A model generated the notes under the pieces. The model saw nothing but the letters and a program-made list of their open reading frames with translations. It was not told where the DNA came from and searched no databases. Below are positions 1,272 to 9,069 of a stretch of DNA of 33,449 nucleotides, in pieces. Source of the stretch: Nitrospirae bacterium RIFCSPLOWO2_02_FULL_62_14 (lineage in GTDB: Bacteria > Nitrospirota > Nitrospiria > Nitrospirales > Nitrospiraceae). Numbering within the stretch: position 1 is the first letter of the stretch; each line of letters begins with the position of its first letter. The stretch spans positions 1-33,449 of the forward strand of contig MHEU01000030.1 in the NCBI GenBank assembly GCA_001805245.1. The letters run 5' to 3'. Made by a program: the position numbers and the translations under genes.

Positions 1272-2447
1272 TTACCCCTGCATTACCACGTGCAGAAAGC
1301 TCTCGCCCCGCGCCAGGCGCTTGATCGCCAGGCTCTCGGCGATCGTCTGGCCGAGATCGGCAAAGCTTTTTCTCGTTCCCAGATTCACGCCCCGCGCCGC
1401 GCGCGCGCCATAGACCAGCAGCGGCACATATTCGCGCGTATGGTCGGTGCCGGACCTGGTCGGATCGTTGCCGTGGTCCGCCGTGATGCAAAGCAGGTCG
1501 TCCTGCTGCATCCCCCCGATGATGTCCGGCAGCCGCGCATCGAACGCCTGCACCGCCCGCGCAAATCCCGCCGCATCGTTCCGATGCCCATACAGCATGT
1601 CGAATTCGATCAGGTTCGAAAAAATCAATCCGCGTGGCACGGACTTCAGCGCCCGCAGGGTCTCCTCCACCGTCGCGGTATCGCTTTTCGTCGGCACGGC
1701 GCGCGTGAGCCCGCGCCCCTTGAACAGATCGTCGATCTTGCCGATCCCGATCACGGGATACCCTTCCGCCTTGAGGGAATCCAGCAGCGTCGGAGCCGTC
1801 GGCTCGACTGAAAAGTCCCGCCGTCCGTCCGTCCGCACGAACGCGCCGGGCTCGCCGGTAAACGGCCGCGCGATGACCCGCGCCACCTGATGCGGAGGAG
1901 ACAGGAGCTTTCGCGCTGTTCGGCACATGCCGTACAACTCTTCGGCAGGAATCACCTGTTCGTGCGCGGCGATCTGGAACACGCTGTCCGCGCTGGTATA
2001 GATGATCGGCGAGCCGGTCTGGAGATGCTGGATGCCCATCTCCTGAATAATGGCGGTCCCCGATGCCGCATAGTTGCCGAGCGTTTTCCGTCCGATCGCC
2101 TGCTGAAACGATTCGATGATCTCCGGCGGAAAACCGTTCGGAAACGTCGGGAATGGTTTCTCCAGCACCACGCCCGTCATTTCCCAATGGCCGGTCGTCG
2201 AGTCCTTCCCCTTGGACAGTTCCGCCATCCGGCCAAAACACCCGTCCGGCTGCGCCGTGCGGCGGACCCCCGCGAGAGGACCCAGATGTCCGAGTCCCAG
2301 GGCCTCCAGATTCGGCACGCGGAGTCCTCCGACCGCCTCCGCCACATGTGCCAGCGTATGAGCCCCCTCGTCGCCGTAGGCGTTCGCATCGGGCTGCGCC
2401 CCGACTCCAACCCCGTCGAGCACAATAAGAATGACCCGGTTGACCAT
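1272..2447 (-). CDS. deoB: Phosphopentomutase DeoB (391 aa)
   Basis: Interconverts ribose/deoxyribose 1-phosphate and 5-phosphate in nucleoside salvage, in the cytoplasm. It belongs to the alkaline phosphatase superfamily with two Mn2+ ions. The N-terminus reads RVILIVLDGVGVGAQPDA, with Asp11 as metal ligand. DSTTGHWE at 82-89 carries the phosphorylated threonine at 85, the same position as in Bacillus DeoB. The C-terminal metal motifs TADHGNDPT and GTDHTREYVP are both present. Length fits the family (about 390 aa). The gene starts only 7 bases after the cyclase-like gene ends, with no clear Shine-Dalgarno sequence, so it is probably translated by coupling. The neighbourhood gives no other nucleoside-catabolism gene (no deoA, deoC or deoD), so it may serve general pentose-phosphate salvage. 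Confidence 0.95.
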   Translation of the reverse strand: MVNRVILIVLDGVGVGAQPDANAYGDEGAHTLAHVAEAVGGLRVPNLEALGLGHLGPLAGVRRTAQPDGCFGRMAELSKGKDSTTGHWEMTGVVLEKPFPTFPNGFPPEIIESFQQAIGRKTLGNYAASGTAIIQEMGIQHLQTGSPIIYTSADSVFQIAAHEQVIPAEELYGMCRTARKLLSPPHQVARVIARPFTGEPGAFVRTDGRRDFSVEPTAPTLLDSLKAEGYPVIGIGKIDDLFKGRGLTRAVPTKSDTATVEETLRALKSVPRGLIFSNLIEFDMLYGHRNDAAGFARAVQAFDARLPDIIGGMQQDDLLCITADHGNDPTRSGTDHTREYVPLLVYGARAARGVNLGTRKSFADLGQTIAESLAIKRLARGESFLHVVMQG

Positions 2448-2454
2448 CGTCAGT

Positions 2455-4938
2455 TTAGAAACGAGGAGTCTGAGAAGACTTAAAGCCGAAGGCGGGCATT
2501 TTCATGGCGGTGGTTTCCATCTTGAGGCGTTCGCTGACGGCCGTGATCAGCTGATCGTTGCCGACGACTTCGTAGAATACCTGGCCGTTCTCCTTTCCTC
2601 TGTAGGAAGATTGCCGGTCGAAGAAACGAACGCGTCCTTCGTGGACGACCAGCCGGTGCATCGTGCCTTTCGTATCTGGAAAGCGGCCGGCGTGGAACGT
2701 GACCGCCTCCGGCATACCCACCACCGGCATTTCGAAGCTTTGCAGCGAGATCTCCTGCTTCAATTTTTCGAATCCGGCGGCGTCGAGTTCAATCCCGTTC
2801 ACATTGTACCGCAGCTCGACTTCGCCCTTCTCCCCCCGCAGGGGATCGCCTTCCGGAATTTCATAGACCTCGACGTTGAGCTGCGTGGCCCCCCGGGCGC
2901 CCTGCTGGCTTCGCTGCTTGCGCAGCATCCAGGAGCAGGAGGACGTCCGGTCGGCCTTGCCGATGGCGGAGGAAATCATGATCGGCGTCTCCCCGTCGAA
3001 CAGGTAGGCAGGCGGCTCCGCGCTGTAGACCAATCCGATGCCCACCTCCAATTCGGGGAGGCCGGCCTTCCGGCAGGCCACGTTCTGCAACTGCACCACG
3101 TCCAGCAGCCGCCTGGCCAGCCCGCAGGCTCGCGCCACGCTCATGTGCTGCTCCGACGCCTCCGCATATTCCATGATGGACAGGATGACCGCATCGCCCT
3201 CGATGAACACCTTGCCCGCCCCGTAAGTGTCCAGCATGGCGTTGATCGGTGTAAAAAAGTTCAGACTGAAATGCGAGGCCGGATTGAGCCCCTGCTTGCG
3301 CAGCGCCGCCGTCATGGTCGTGGACCCCCGCACGTCCGCCTTGAGAATCGTATGGCCGATCACCGTTTTGGAAGCCGTGCCTTCCTCCCTTGCCGCCAGA
3401 AATTCATTCAGCGTATTGTTGGCTTTCGACAGCTTGAGGTGGTTCGGGTCTTCCAGCAACTGAATCTGCGCCATGGCTTTCTGCATGAGATCATAGCCCC
3501 GGAGATCCCGCCGCAGCGTCAGAAAATCCCGCAGGAACCGCACCAGGCAGGCGCGACTCTTCCTGACGCCGGCCCAGGCCACGCGCTTTGCCGCATCGTC
3601 CAGTATCTCGAAGGTCTCGGTGCAATTGGCGGACGAAAACTTCTCCCTGATCCTCTGCTTGATCTCGCTACGCCTGGCAGGATGGGACAGGAACTGGTGC
3701 AGCTGCTGGGCCGTCACGACGCCGACCAGATTTTTGAAGGTGGCGGCGGACTCATACGAAGCCACGATCGGGGTGATCAATCCGCTGTCATACGCCTGCA
3801 CCTCCACGGCCCGAAACAGCCGCCGCTGGAACAGGCCGTGGACTTTCGAGGCGTCGGCCGCCTGCTGGTCCTTGGCCTTGCGCGCGGTCGAGAGCCGTTG
3901 CTGCGATTGCTCGACATCGAACAGCACCTCGACATTGGCCGGCACGTCCGCCCAGGCATAGCTTTCACGGGCATAGGCCATCTGCGCCTGTTCCAACAGC
4001 ACCGTGGCGTCCTTGATTTTCTCCTCCAGCACCGTGATCCGGGAATCGTACTCCCCGGACTTGGCCGTGCCGCTGATCCATCCCCGCTTTTTCTTGAGCC
4101 GGTTTTGCTCGGCAAGCAGGGCATTGCGATCCCGCGTGGCGCTCGCAAGCAGCCGCTCGGTCGCCGTCTCCGGCTTGTCCCGCCAGAACAGATAAAGCAG
4201 GAAGCGGTCCAGTTGGGCGAAGGAATACAACTGATCGGGTCCGTGCTCCACCAGCACGTAATGCTTCATGAGCAGTTCGTCTTCCATGGGGCTTTCGCCG
4301 AACAGCAGCGGGTTGATCAGCACGTGCTCGGGGAGCACCCACCGGTCCCCATGCAACGACTGGCGCAAATCTCCCAGCGGGCCGGCCTCCGCCTTGCGGA
4401 TCTGCTCCAGAACCTGGCTGCACACCGTGTAATGCAGCTTGGGGCGGTTCCGCGCGAACCAGACCGTCTGATCGGCGACCGCCTGCCGGTCGGCGTCGGA
4501 TGCCGTGGTCGCCGCCTTGCGCAACCGCTGTTTGGCCTGCTCCAGCGCGGCCTGCACGCAATTGAGGACGAACTTCAGCGTTGCGACCTGCGCCAGTTCG
4601 ACCAGCGGCAACGCACTCTGCTGTTTGGCGCGATGGATGACCGCTTGGATCATTTGACCGTAGGCGGTTTTGAACTCTTCCACATCGGGGGATTTGCCGC
4701 CCTGCCCGCGCCACAGCTGATATTCCAGAAGGCCGTAGACGAGCCTCATGGCCGCATTTGTGAACGTCGGGCTCAGCCGCACGTCCACGTGCACGTTGTC
4801 GATGCCCCGCGTAAATTTCTCGAAGCTGAGATTGACGGGCGCCGCCGTTTGGAGAGGCATGGTCGTGCCGGCAGGGGAAATGGGCCCCTGGAGGAGCACG
4901 AGAATTCTCTGGAAGGTTGTGACCAGCAGTCTGATCAT
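2455..4938 (-). CDS. Large protein with degenerate class III adenylate/guanylate cyclase-like domain (827 aa)
   Basis: The first 500 residues are mostly helical and unrecognised, with a charged heptad-like coiled-coil region around 270-345 and few hydrophobic stretches. No convincing transmembrane segment is seen apart from a weak N-terminal one (IRLLVTTFQRILVLL). Residues of about 525-670 resemble the class III cyclase catalytic fold. ILKADVRGSTTM contains Asp535 where the first metal ligand lies, and IEGDAVILSI contains Asp582 at the second metal position. Where active enzymes have the Asn-x3-Arg helix, this protein reads SSAIGKADR: Arg664 is kept but the Asn is not obvious. It may therefore be a cyclase with altered chemistry or a nucleotide sensor. 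The start ATG overlaps the mltG stop by 4 bases and deoB follows 7 bases later, so it is embedded in the operon. The 150-residue tail after the cyclase region is unassigned. Confidence 0.7.
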   Translation of the reverse strand: MIRLLVTTFQRILVLLQGPISPAGTTMPLQTAAPVNLSFEKFTRGIDNVHVDVRLSPTFTNAAMRLVYGLLEYQLWRGQGGKSPDVEEFKTAYGQMIQAVIHRAKQQSALPLVELAQVATLKFVLNCVQAALEQAKQRLRKAATTASDADRQAVADQTVWFARNRPKLHYTVCSQVLEQIRKAEAGPLGDLRQSLHGDRWVLPEHVLINPLLFGESPMEDELLMKHYVLVEHGPDQLYSFAQLDRFLLYLFWRDKPETATERLLASATRDRNALLAEQNRLKKKRGWISGTAKSGEYDSRITVLEEKIKDATVLLEQAQMAYARESYAWADVPANVEVLFDVEQSQQRLSTARKAKDQQAADASKVHGLFQRRLFRAVEVQAYDSGLITPIVASYESAATFKNLVGVVTAQQLHQFLSHPARRSEIKQRIREKFSSANCTETFEILDDAAKRVAWAGVRKSRACLVRFLRDFLTLRRDLRGYDLMQKAMAQIQLLEDPNHLKLSKANNTLNEFLAAREEGTASKTVIGHTILKADVRGSTTMTAALRKQGLNPASHFSLNFFTPINAMLDTYGAGKVFIEGDAVILSIMEYAEASEQHMSVARACGLARRLLDVVQLQNVACRKAGLPELEVGIGLVYSAEPPAYLFDGETPIMISSAIGKADRTSSCSWMLRKQRSQQGARGATQLNVEVYEIPEGDPLRGEKGEVELRYNVNGIELDAAGFEKLKQEISLQSFEMPVVGMPEAVTFHAGRFPDTKGTMHRLVVHEGRVRFFDRQSSYRGKENGQVFYEVVGNDQLITAVSERLKMETTAMKMPAFGFKSSQTPRF

Positions 4939-5978
4939 GTCGAGCGCCGAGCCGCCTTGACTACCCCGTGGCGTTGATATTTATCCACAGCTCGGTTGTG
5001 CTCTGCAAGCGTTGATGAAAATTGGTGCGTGCCGTCATTCCGGGATACGAAGTAGAGATTCCTGGTCGGGGCCGGATAGAGGGCGGCCCGGATCGAGCCC
5101 AGGCCGGGATTGGCGATCGGCCCAGGCGGAAGACCGCGATTTTTATAGGTATTATAGGGGCTCTTGGAATCGAGGTCTTTCTTCCTGAGATTACCGTCGA
5201 AATAGTCCAGCCCGTAAATCACCGTCGGATCGCTTTGCAGCGGGATGCCGCGCTTCAGCCGGTTGTGAAACACGGATGCGATCAACTCCCGCTCCTGTGT
5301 CACGCCGGTTTCCTTTTCGATGACGGAGGCTAGGGTCAGCACTTGATGAAGGCTCATATGTATCTCCTGCGCCCGCTGCTGAAACTCCGGCGTGAACACG
5401 CTCCGGAACCCCTCGACCATCTCTTTCAGAATCTCTTTCGGTTTCGTATGCCGCGCAAACTTGTAGGTATTGGGATAGAGATAACCTTCCAGGCTCGCCG
5501 CTTCGATAGACAGGGAACGGATGAAATCCCGGTCATGGGCCAGGCTGATCAGCGCTTCCGGGTCGGCGACGCCCTGCTGTGCGAAGACCTGCGCCAGCTC
5601 GACGATGTTGTAGCCTTCGGGGATCGTCACCTGATAGAGCACGACGCGCCCGCTCAGAAAGTCGGCCAGCATGTCACCGGGCCGCATCCCCGCGTGCACG
5701 GCGTACTCCCCCACTTTGATGCGGCGGTCGGCCGCCCGCAGCTTCCCCAGCAGCACGAAGGCCCATCGGCTGCGGATCAGCCGCTCCTGTTCGAGCCTGG
5801 CCGCCAGCTGGCGGAGAGTCATGCCTTCGGGGATTTCGATGATCCTGGTCGTGGGAGGGCGGGAAAAATCGGTGGCCGGCTCAACCGGCCCCAGCATCCA
5901 CTGGAAACCCAGGAAGGCGGCACAGGCACCCGCTGCCACCACTCCGATCAGCAGCCGGAATGTGCGTTCGCTCGTCAT
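4935..5978 (-). CDS. mltG: Endolytic murein transglycosylase MltG (347 aa)
   Basis: MltG (YceG) is an inner-membrane lytic transglycosylase that cuts nascent glycan strands and sets their length. The protein has a short cytoplasmic start, one transmembrane helix at about 8-28, a LysM-like subdomain with the repeated motifs EIPEGMTLRQLA (48-59) and TIPEGYNIVELA (118-129), the EGYLYPNTY motif (164-172), and ASVIEKET with the catalytic Glu221. The C-terminal half contains the expected PTVIYGL, SPYNTY and GLPPGPIANPG motifs. Length is normal. It overlaps both neighbours by 4 bases (ATGA), which couples it to ruvX upstream and to the cyclase-like gene downstream. Confidence 0.95.
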   Translation of the reverse strand: MTSERTFRLLIGVVAAGACAAFLGFQWMLGPVEPATDFSRPPTTRIIEIPEGMTLRQLAARLEQERLIRSRWAFVLLGKLRAADRRIKVGEYAVHAGMRPGDMLADFLSGRVVLYQVTIPEGYNIVELAQVFAQQGVADPEALISLAHDRDFIRSLSIEAASLEGYLYPNTYKFARHTKPKEILKEMVEGFRSVFTPEFQQRAQEIHMSLHQVLTLASVIEKETGVTQERELIASVFHNRLKRGIPLQSDPTVIYGLDYFDGNLRKKDLDSKSPYNTYKNRGLPPGPIANPGLGSIRAALYPAPTRNLYFVSRNDGTHQFSSTLAEHNRAVDKYQRHGVVKAARRST

Positions 5979-6441: not shown

Positions 6442-9069
6442 CTAGCCTGCCGACTGTTCCACGAGGGTGAAAATTTTGTCCAGCGCCGTCTGCAGTCCTT
6501 CCGGGTTCTTGCCACCGGCTTGCGCCATTTCAGGACGGCCTCCGCCGGTCCCGCCCACCGCTGCCGCCATCTCCTTGATCAACTCGCCGGCCTTGAGCTT
6601 CGCCGTCAAATCCTTGGTGACGACCACCAGCAGCGAGACCTTGTCGTCCTTGACGCCGCCCAGCACAATCACGCCGCTTTTCAATTTGTCGCGGAGCTGG
6701 TCGGCCAGGGTGCGCAGCTCGCCCCCTTCCATGCCGTCCACCCGCTGGGCATGGACCTGAACGCCCTTCACCGTGCGCACAATGGCCTCATCCTTGGCGC
6801 CGCTCGCCATCTTGAGCTTCACCTGTTCCAGCTCACGCTCCTTGTCTTTCAACTGCGCCAGCAGCCGCTTCGTCTTGGCCACCAGCTCAGACGGCGCAAC
6901 CTTCAGGAGTTCAGAGAGTTCTTGAACTTCATGATCGAGTTGCTTGATTTGCATGGAAGCGCCGCTCCCGGTCACGCACTCGATTCTCCGCACGCCGGCC
7001 GCCACGCCCGTCTCCGAGACCAGCCGAAAGACACCGATCTCGCCGGTCTGCTTGCAGTGTGTCCCTCCGCACAGCTCCCTGCTGAAGGAATCGACACTGA
7101 CCACCCGCACCTGATCCCCGTATTTGTCGCCAAAGAACGCCAGCGCGCCGGCGGCTACCGCCTCCTGGACCCCCATCACATCCGTCTTGACCGCCTGGTT
7201 CTTCCGGATCTGCTCGTTGACCATGGATTCGATGTCGTCGGTATCGCGTGACGAGAGCGGCCGGAAATGCGCAAAGTCGAAGCGCAGCCGGTTCGGCGCC
7301 ACCAATGAGCCGTATTGCTTGACGTGGGGACCGAGCAGCTCGCGCAGGGCGGCATGCACCAGGTGAGTGGCGGTGTGATTGCGCGCCGCATCCTGCCGCG
7401 TGACTCTGTTGACTGCGGCGTGAACCGCCTGCCCGACTGTTATTCGACCCACCGTCACGGTCCCCTTGTGCACCACGACGTTCGGCGCCGGCCTCGTCGT
7501 ATCCTTGATCTCCACCCGTCCCTCAGGGCCGGCCAGCACGCCCTGATCGCCGGCCTGCCCGCCGCCCTCCGCATAGAACGGCGTCACGTCCAGCACCAGT
7601 TCGATCTCGTCGCCCTGCCCCGCCTCGCGCACGACCCGATCGCCCTTGAGCATCGCCTGCACGACCGCGTCGGCTTCCAGCCGGTCGTACCCGACGAACT
7701 TTGCCGCCGGCACCGTCTTGCCGACCTCCACGACGCCGGGCCGGGCCGCCGCCACCTCGAACGCCGCCGATTTGCGGGCCCGCTCGCGCTGCTCGTCGAG
7801 GGCGCGCTGGAACCCGGCTTCGTCCACCGCCATGCTCTGCTCCCGGCAGGCCTCGGCAATGAGATCCATCGGGAACCCGTAGGTGTCGTACAGCTTGAAC
7901 GCCTGGTCGCCGGCCAGCACCTTGTGCGACGAGAGTTTGGCCTTCGTCACCATCTCGTTAAGAATCGGCAGTCCCTGGTCCAGCGTGGCGATGAACCGTT
8001 CCTCCTCGCCCTGCGTGATCTCGGCCACGGTCCCCGACGCGCGGGCGAGATCGGCATAGGCGCCGGACATTTGCGACACGACCGCGCCCGTCAATTCGCC
8101 CAGAAACGATTCCGCCACACCCAGCAGACGCCCGTGACGGGCGGCCCGGCGCAGGATGCGCCGCAGCACGTAGCCCCGCCCTTCGTTGGACGGCAGGATG
8201 CCGTCCGCAATCATGAATGTCATCGCGCGCAGGTGATCGGCAACCACGCGCATGGACCGGTCGTGAATGGCATCGACGCCGTACTGATGCCTGGTCCGTT
8301 TCCCGATCGCCGCCAGCAGCGGCTTGAACAGATCGCTGTCGTAATTGCTGTAGACGCCCTGCGCCACGGCGGCCAGCCGCTCGAGCCCCATGCCCGTATC
8401 GATGCTCGGCTTCGGCAGGGGATTGAGCGTGCCGCCGGCGTCGCGATCGTACTGCATGAAGACGAGGTTCCAGATTTCGATCACCCGGTCCCCGTCTCCA
8501 TTGGGCACGGCATCGCCCGGCACCGACGGCCCCTGGTCGAAATGGATTTCCGAGCAGGGCCCGCAGGGACCCGTATCAGCCATCTGCCAGAAATTATCCG
8601 TTTCGTCGCAGCGCACGATACGGGACGCCGGCACGCCGATCTTCTCCCAGAGTTTGAACGCCTCGTCGTCTTCGCGAAACACCGTGACCCAGAGCCGGTC
8701 CTTGGGCAGACCGACCGCCCTGGTCAGGTAATCCCATCCGTAGAAGATCGCATCGGTCTTGAAGTAGTCGCCGAAGGAAAAATTGCCGAGCATTTCAAAG
8801 AAGGTATGGTGCCGTCTCGTGTAGCCGACGTTTTCCAGATCGTTATGCTTGCCGCCGGCCCGCACGCACTTCTGCACCGTGACGGCCCGCTTGTATGGAC
8901 GCTGCTCTTCACCCAGAAACACCCGCTTGAACTGGTTCATGCCGGCGTTGGTGAAGAGAATGGTCGGGTCCGCCTGGGGGATCAGCGGCGAACTGGGGAT
9001 GGCCTGGTGCCCGTGCCCCTGGAAATACTTGATGAAGCCCTGCCGAAGCGATTCCGCCGTCTGGCTCAT
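6442..9069 (-). CDS. alaS: Alanyl-tRNA synthetase AlaS (875 aa)
   Basis: Charges tRNA-Ala in the cytoplasm and edits mischarged Ser and Gly. The open frame extends to 9090, but the ATG at 9069 (MSQTAESLRQGF) is preferred: it matches the family start and overlaps the recX stop by 4 bases (ATGA). The class II catalytic core is at the N-terminus, with SSPLIPQADPTILFTNAGMN-like motif 1 residues, followed by RRHHTFFEMLGNFSFGDYF. The editing domain holds the zinc ligands in NHTATHLVH (about 563-570) and CGGTHC (about 666-671). The last 120 residues form the C-Ala domain: a coiled coil rich in Lys and Glu, then a GGTGGGRPEMAQAGG glycine-rich motif. All domains and length are normal. Confidence 0.97.
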   Translation of the reverse strand: MSQTAESLRQGFIKYFQGHGHQAIPSSPLIPQADPTILFTNAGMNQFKRVFLGEEQRPYKRAVTVQKCVRAGGKHNDLENVGYTRRHHTFFEMLGNFSFGDYFKTDAIFYGWDYLTRAVGLPKDRLWVTVFREDDEAFKLWEKIGVPASRIVRCDETDNFWQMADTGPCGPCSEIHFDQGPSVPGDAVPNGDGDRVIEIWNLVFMQYDRDAGGTLNPLPKPSIDTGMGLERLAAVAQGVYSNYDSDLFKPLLAAIGKRTRHQYGVDAIHDRSMRVVADHLRAMTFMIADGILPSNEGRGYVLRRILRRAARHGRLLGVAESFLGELTGAVVSQMSGAYADLARASGTVAEITQGEEERFIATLDQGLPILNEMVTKAKLSSHKVLAGDQAFKLYDTYGFPMDLIAEACREQSMAVDEAGFQRALDEQRERARKSAAFEVAAARPGVVEVGKTVPAAKFVGYDRLEADAVVQAMLKGDRVVREAGQGDEIELVLDVTPFYAEGGGQAGDQGVLAGPEGRVEIKDTTRPAPNVVVHKGTVTVGRITVGQAVHAAVNRVTRQDAARNHTATHLVHAALRELLGPHVKQYGSLVAPNRLRFDFAHFRPLSSRDTDDIESMVNEQIRKNQAVKTDVMGVQEAVAAGALAFFGDKYGDQVRVVSVDSFSRELCGGTHCKQTGEIGVFRLVSETGVAAGVRRIECVTGSGASMQIKQLDHEVQELSELLKVAPSELVAKTKRLLAQLKDKERELEQVKLKMASGAKDEAIVRTVKGVQVHAQRVDGMEGGELRTLADQLRDKLKSGVIVLGGVKDDKVSLLVVVTKDLTAKLKAGELIKEMAAAVGGTGGGRPEMAQAGGKNPEGLQTALDKIFTLVEQSAG

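Follow-up and report, generated by a model that had tools for sequence, protein, structure and literature searches.

A class III cyclase-fold protein family with an apparently remodeled active site in Nitrospirota and Proteobacteria

Gene X lies in the window, the whole stretch of 33,449 nucleotides analyzed here (contig MHEU01000030.1 of Nitrospirae bacterium RIFCSPLOWO2_02_FULL_62_14), and encodes an 827-residue protein, protein X, with the fold of a class III nucleotidyl cyclase in its C-terminal part (Table 1). Homologs covering most of its length are present in the Nitrospirota and the Proteobacteria. Across these relatives the active site looks remodeled rather than dead, and given this altered site protein X may produce an uncommon signal or, alternatively, act as a sensor of nucleotides. 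The reading we favor, tentatively and with chances that we judge close to evenly balanced, is that protein X would be an enzyme that acts on nucleotides with the help of metal ions, perhaps as a cyclase with an unusual specificity, under the control of its helical N-terminal region; this reading draws on sequence comparison and a structure model.

Table 1. Positions of gene X, its neighbors and the protein features discussed in the text (window coordinates; row counts refer to the 83-row family alignment)
Feature	Position	Strand	Basis
Gene X, 827-aa class III cyclase-fold protein	2455..4938	minus	ORF and translation, ATG start
mltG (YceG-like)	4935..5978	minus	PF02618, E 9.8e-93
deoB, phosphopentomutase-type metalloenzyme	1272..2447	minus	PF01676 Metalloenzyme, E 4.4e-39
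Residues 1-503, almost all-helical, no known family	3430..4938	minus	Model, no database match, conservation
Residues 2-16, amphipathic first helix that may anchor the protein peripherally to the membrane	4891..4935	minus	Helix in model
Residues 504-799, class III nucleotidyl cyclase fold	2542..3429	minus	Structure model, Foldseek, VIA-align, hhalign
Lys533, two before first metal Asp, invariant (83/83)	3340..3342	minus	Counts
Asp535, first metal Asp, 82/83 rows	3334..3336	minus	Translation, hhalign, counts
Phe578, first purine-selecting position (4 before second metal Asp), F 83/83	3205..3207	minus	Rv1625c spacing (excerpt of PMC4174876), hhalign
Glu580, two before second metal Asp, invariant (83/83)	3199..3201	minus	Counts
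Asp582, second metal Asp, 83/83 rows	3193..3195	minus	Translation, hhalign, counts
Ile653, seven residues ahead of the Asn column at the second purine-selecting position; I in 81 rows, V in 2	2980..2982	minus	Rv1625c spacing (excerpt of PMC4174876), hhalign
Gly660, column of the ribose-orienting catalytic Asn	2959..2961	minus	hhalign, counts
Arg664, column of the transition-state Arg (four after Asn)	2947..2949	minus	hhalign, counts

The cyclase fold and its detection

The assignment of the fold rests on structural and on profile comparisons. A structure model of protein X built from 75 aligned rows (mean pLDDT 89.8, pTM 0.82) returned class III cyclases at the top of a Foldseek search (2bw7_B, E 2.9e-7; 93 matches at E<=0.001), and VIA-align paired it with 6aoa at Z 16.6 (175 aligned, 2.8 A) and with 2w01_A at Z 16.3 (183 aligned, 2.8 A), the alignments spanning model residues ~504-799. 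In an earlier model from 9 rows, the cyclase part had for the most part stayed at pLDDT <50. Comparison by hhalign with six canonical cyclase domains from the window's own genome gave P 5.5e-5 for the full family profile and 9.5e-6 for the domain alone, the latter with a score of 43.2 as against at most 21.0 for 100 column-shuffled controls, 14.3 for the reversed target and 14.2 for the N-terminal region. The family profile also matches two canonical Guanylate_cyc proteins (E 2e-7 and 5e-5, both one-genome E values), the second of these being weak after correction since 274 genomes were searched. An earlier note, made from the sequence alone, had proposed a class III cyclase-like domain and had named the fold at residues 525-670 as the point on which the proposal would stand or fall; the fold is present there in the model and the hhalign scores lie above those of the shuffled controls, so that the domain itself stands, but the limits given for it were too narrow, the real span being ~504-799.

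Standard domain models miss this relationship. Protein X has no significant match in Pfam, where the best candidate (WcbI, E 0.016) lies below the family cut-off and was taken as chance, and none in NCBIfam or among PDB sequences, which agrees with the earlier description of the N-terminal ~500 residues as unfamiliar. PF00211 does not match protein X at E up to 1 or any of seven scanned family rows at E up to 0.1, the other relatives scanned likewise give no match to it, and NCBIfam assigns none of six relatives to the cyclases. A HMMER search of PDB sequences with the 75-row family profile found no cyclases; a multidrug-operon repressor (1lnw, E 0.41) seen in this search was again taken as chance. 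The relation between the family and the cyclases is too distant for plain HMMER. Neither a name for the family (Pfam, NCBIfam and the literature searched) nor an activity of any member (literature searched) was found, and a literature search on cyclases lacking the Asn or on pseudo-cyclases yielded nothing.

Chemistry other than cyclization is also carried on this fold, as in GTP cyclohydrolase III (MJ0145), and protein X might catalyze a different reaction of this sort, e.g., NTP hydrolysis or ring opening. GTP cyclohydrolase III (2qv6) is among the weak Foldseek matches of a shallow model (E 0.12, 0.14), and Lys533, Glu580, Asp648 and Asp663 are invariant in the family; however, the similarity in fold is distant and weak, and canonical cyclases match protein X far better. 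We consider such a reaction improbable.

A class III-type domain is likewise common to protein X and the pyrimidine cyclases of Pycsar defense (PycC), and the relative at L080 weakly matches two PADLOC models of PycC (E 0.0025 and 0.022). Protein X itself matches 0 PADLOC families at E up to 0.1, the relative at L061 similarly has no PADLOC match, and no effector with a cyclic-pyrimidine receptor is evident among the Pfam-scanned neighbors (mltG, deoB, ruvX, alaS, recX, recA, a CinA-type and a YjgF-type gene); unlike PycC, protein X has 827 residues with a long helical N-terminus. Assignment to a Pycsar system was dropped in view of the PADLOC result.

Family members and their active sites

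Gene X is present in 11 of 61 whole genomes (its own included), all 11 within the same family; full-length matches in the other genomes show 48-83% identity, and in two genomes the gene is in two pieces. Of 395 genomes in the phylum, 7 matched a profile of nine Nitrospirota members, its own genome again among them. Relatives were not found when genome contigs were scanned with the single protein; scanned with the nine-member profile, the contigs gave 503 pattern matches, 455 of which encode relatives by tblastn. The best 80 of these 455 belong, by the titles of their records, mostly to Gammaproteobacteria (Beggiatoa-type, Sedimenticola, Chromatiales, Pseudomonadales), and also include Nitrospirota, Zetaproteobacteria and Desulfobacterota. 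The class sample around one Sedimenticola genome (G414) contained matches in 13 of 274 genomes and a family member in 12 of 274, with a fragment only in G629, a gene in two pieces in G453 and G508, and a canonical cyclase only in G658. In one Nitrospirota assembly (G002) the homolog, L023, is split between two frames around 6906-6912, through either an assembly error or a real break.

Some divergent members differ in their N-terminal architecture. An LspA-like (Peptidase_A8) membrane domain is found at the N-terminus, in frame ahead of the conserved part, in L120, L044, L122, L123 and L125 (30.4-60.4 bits against a cut-off of 25; weaker in L119/L040, at 23.1), where it occupies 14-151 of the 926-aa frame of L120, and both Asp of what we take to be the LspA motifs seem, by eye, to be kept. 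While four divergent members carry a domain like LspA (signal peptidase II) above the Pfam cut-off, protein X has no LspA match and a short amphipathic helix only.

To compare active sites we used a set of 83 rows, consisting of the window and 74 of the best 80 of the 455 loci (75 rows) together with 8 further rows; the set counts two organisms twice (L040/L119 and L044/L120). L023, L059 and L074 were left out as their match is not in one open frame, L031 (partial), L066 and L089 were left out of the 75 rows, and L124, L127 and L128 (split or partial) were left out of the tree. Positions in protein X were set by alignment and not by the geometry of the model. The reference for the purine-selecting positions was Rv1625c, for which the excerpt of PMC4174876 gives Asp256 and Asp300 as metal ligands, Lys296 and Asp365 as substrate-specifying residues, and Asn372 and Arg376. 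PMC9223806 describes a contact from the catalytic Asn of cyclases to the ring oxygen of the ribose, and assigns the Arg to the triphosphate and the transition state.

Protein X shares with class III cyclases (CyaC, Cya2, CyaB, Rv1625c; PF00211) the metal Asp pair, the Arg and the order of motifs in addition to the fold, and differs from them in Gly for the Asn, in Phe and Ile at the purine-selecting positions, in its invisibility to PF00211, in its own N-terminal region of ~500 residues and in additional family-invariant residues. Asp535, Asp582 and Arg664 are present in the translation, as had been noted earlier, and the remark that the catalytic Asn was not obvious finds its explanation in Gly660, which hhalign places in the Asn column. 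The term degenerate, which the same note used for the domain, holds only with qualification: Asn has become Gly in the window's branch, but in the family the Asn column reads G 46, N 33, S 2 and A 2 and the metal Asp residues are nearly invariant; the column of the transition-state Arg reads R 65, Q 17 and E 1. The positions invariant in all 83 rows comprise His529, Lys533, Arg537, Ser539, Lys576, Phe578, Glu580, Asn619, Asp648, Ser656 and Asp663. Only in L071 is the first metal Asp replaced by Gly; this locus is labeled as a Klebsiella pneumoniae MAG and groups in the tree with Pseudomonadales MAGs, and the label may be wrong.

The Asn is lost in 50 of the 83 rows and the Arg in 18, neither is lost in 15 (e.g., L062 and L088 have both), and no row has lost both. 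That at least one of the two is kept in every row seen would fit selection for catalysis or substrate positioning and not a relic. The tree needs only three changes between Asn and not-Asn and four between Arg and not-Arg, and the absence of double losses therefore reflects few independent events; this is a quick tree with several long branches that are possibly misplaced. A formal reciprocity of the two losses finds no support in the independent-pairs test, which has no power here (2 pairs, p 1).

These patterns bear directly on the main rival, a non-catalytic nucleotide sensor (pseudocyclase) in which NTP and metal would report energy or nucleotide state through the N-terminal region with no cyclization. 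Such a role would suit a protein in which Gly replaces the Asn and the purine contacts are absent; across the family, 68 of 83 rows carry another residue in place of the Asn or the Arg, and the domain has diverged too far for PF00211 to see. Against it stand the 15 rows that keep all four residues, the lack of any row without both Asn and Arg, and the retention of the metal Asp residues. Between the two we hold a remodeled enzyme to be likelier than a dead sensor, on account of a metal site that hardly varies across several phyla and of an Asn and an Arg that are never lost together in the rows seen. Neither point is proof, and we regard the sensor as somewhat unlikely. Weighing against an enzyme are the absence of the ribose-orienting Asn in the window's branch and the hydrophobic character of both purine-selecting positions.

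The purine-selecting pair is Lys/Asp in adenylyl cyclases and Glu/Cys in guanylyl cyclases. At the first position, the canonical domains of the window's genome, six in number, carry K 4, Q 1 and R 1, and at the second T 5 and A 1, and since these positions vary even there, Phe578 and Ile653 are a weaker sign.

The window's genome (2.66 Mb) has 10 matches to the cyclase model PF00211 and 4 to the cNMP-binding model PF00027, which makes cyclic-nucleotide signaling plausible in this organism. It also brings in a further scenario, in which protein X would act as the metal-Asp half of a mixed site, paired with one of the cell's own canonical cyclases, which would provide the Asn and the base-reading residues; in mixed cyclase sites C1 contributes the Asp residues and C2 everything else, according to the excerpt of PMC4174876. 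Protein X does keep the metal half, and the homolog at L030 adjoins a canonical cyclase. However, this adjacency is seen at one locus only, and the Arg kept in protein X would be superfluous for a C1 half, so that we find the arrangement hardly probable.

Compared with L022, its nearest full-length relative (83% identity), gene X has a dN of 0.095 and a dS of 0.659 over its whole length (dN/dS 0.14), the corresponding values being 0.124 and 0.751 for residues 1-500, 0.044 and 0.534 for residues 504-799, and 0.018 and 0.417 for residues 525-670 (dN/dS 0.04), all from this single pair. Purifying selection is strongest in the cyclase core, the part likeliest to carry the chemistry.

Gene neighborhood

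In the window, the end of mltG (4935) overlaps the start of gene X by 4 nt (ATGA) and deoB starts (2447) 7 nt after the gene X stop, so that the coupled position between mltG and deoB described earlier reads as stated; the recombination genes mentioned with it apply in a wider sense only, with ruvX, alaS, recX and recA upstream of gene X. A YjgF-type gene follows downstream of deoB.

Among the 11 Nitrospirota loci examined (the window and L022-L031), deoB lies directly downstream of gene X in 10, the exception being L030, and mltG lies upstream in 9, either directly or across deoC; at L031 mltG is not visible because the locus begins inside the gene X homolog. As deoC and gene X stand together between mltG and deoB in L024, L025, L027 and L028, with deoC between mltG and gene X, the idea that gene X had replaced deoC was dropped. 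At L030 (1800-7842) a metallo-beta-lactamase-fold protein is encoded upstream of the homolog and a CHASE2-Guanylate_cyc-PilZ protein downstream; the former gives a match to class II cAMP phosphodiesterases as well (E 9.3e-10). This arrangement speaks for a nucleotide-cyclizing enzyme but is a single case.

The same gene order exists without gene X. Matches to deoB were found in 32 and to mltG in 59 of the 61 genomes; all 11 genomes with gene X have both, and a further 21 of the 61 have both without it. From genomes lacking gene X, eight regions were chosen (L133-L140), in which the order is mltG-deoC-deoB (L133, L135, L136), mltG-deoB alone (L134), or mltG-deoC with deoB ~1.4 and 3.8 kb further on (L138, L139); L137 and L140 contain no deoB, a gene for which their genomes (G007, G011) give no match anywhere. 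Gene X is therefore a lineage-specific member of the mltG/deoB order, and its adjacency to these genes occurs only in the Nitrospirota among the loci examined.

Other neighbors are evident in the wider sample of 77 loci, Nitrospirota included, for which neighbors were called. In 25 of them (e.g., L080 5466-5912) the gene immediately upstream, on the same strand, is for an Rsd/AlgQ-type sigma-70 regulator, and a gene for an SLT-type lytic transglycosylase lies nearby in 25 of the 77, in 21 of these 25 convergently on the opposite strand; the loci outside those patterns have unrelated neighbors. These clusters come from blastp comparison; a Pfam scan covered one member of the Rsd/AlgQ cluster (L080) and two of the SLT cluster. 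Literature searches combining mltG with deoB and cyclase, or Rsd with AlgQ and cyclase, returned nothing.

These neighborhoods speak to whether protein X might work with mltG and deoB as a helper in cell-wall or nucleoside metabolism, a link to peptidoglycan synthesis having been raised in the earlier note. The conserved placement in the Nitrospirota and the SLT-type neighbors would be in keeping with such a role, but the latter mostly lie on the opposite strand, other loci have unrelated neighbors, and the 21 genomes match mltG and deoB but not gene X. With mltG/deoB adjacency confined to one phylum among the loci examined and an Rsd/AlgQ-type gene upstream in 25 of the 77, a specific link to peptidoglycan finds no support, and we regard a helper of this kind as very improbable.

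The N-terminal region and a possible mode of action

The N-terminal region contains a conserved motif, GIDNxHxDVxLSPxF, near residues 45-59 of protein X and ends in the model in a long helix (458-490). Foldseek with a shallow, low-pLDDT model returned mostly cyclases together with generic helical matches, and no known fold for residues 1-500. No transmembrane-like window was seen; residues 2-16 have a hydrophobic moment of 0.49, the best of 12 windows, and among 2000 shuffled versions of these residues 73 score as high.

For the metal-dependent enzyme that we favor, these features suggest the following scenario. The helical region of ~500 residues would sense an input, perhaps at the membrane, which it could contact through its amphipathic first helix, and would alter the dimer formed by the cyclase-fold domain, with NTP and metal ions bound at the interface. 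The site would still do chemistry, most likely a slow or substrate-altered cyclization, on a nucleotide that would not be read by the usual purine contacts. A more far-reaching version holds that this unnamed family has rebuilt its pocket around the invariant Lys533, Phe578 and Glu580 and the near-invariant Ile653 so as to read neither ATP nor GTP but a different nucleotide, the product being a cyclic nucleotide or another compound not yet known to signal in the Nitrospirota and the sulfur-oxidizing Gammaproteobacteria; this we consider clearly unlikely.

The family comprises hundreds of candidate loci that standard domain models have missed, despite the fold being that of a central signaling enzyme. 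Its members are natural variants that carry all four catalytic residues, or lack the Asn, or lack the Arg, on an almost invariant metal site, and this series lets one ask what roles the Asn and the Arg each play, whether other nucleotides are read by class III folds, and at what point a cyclase turns into a sensor.
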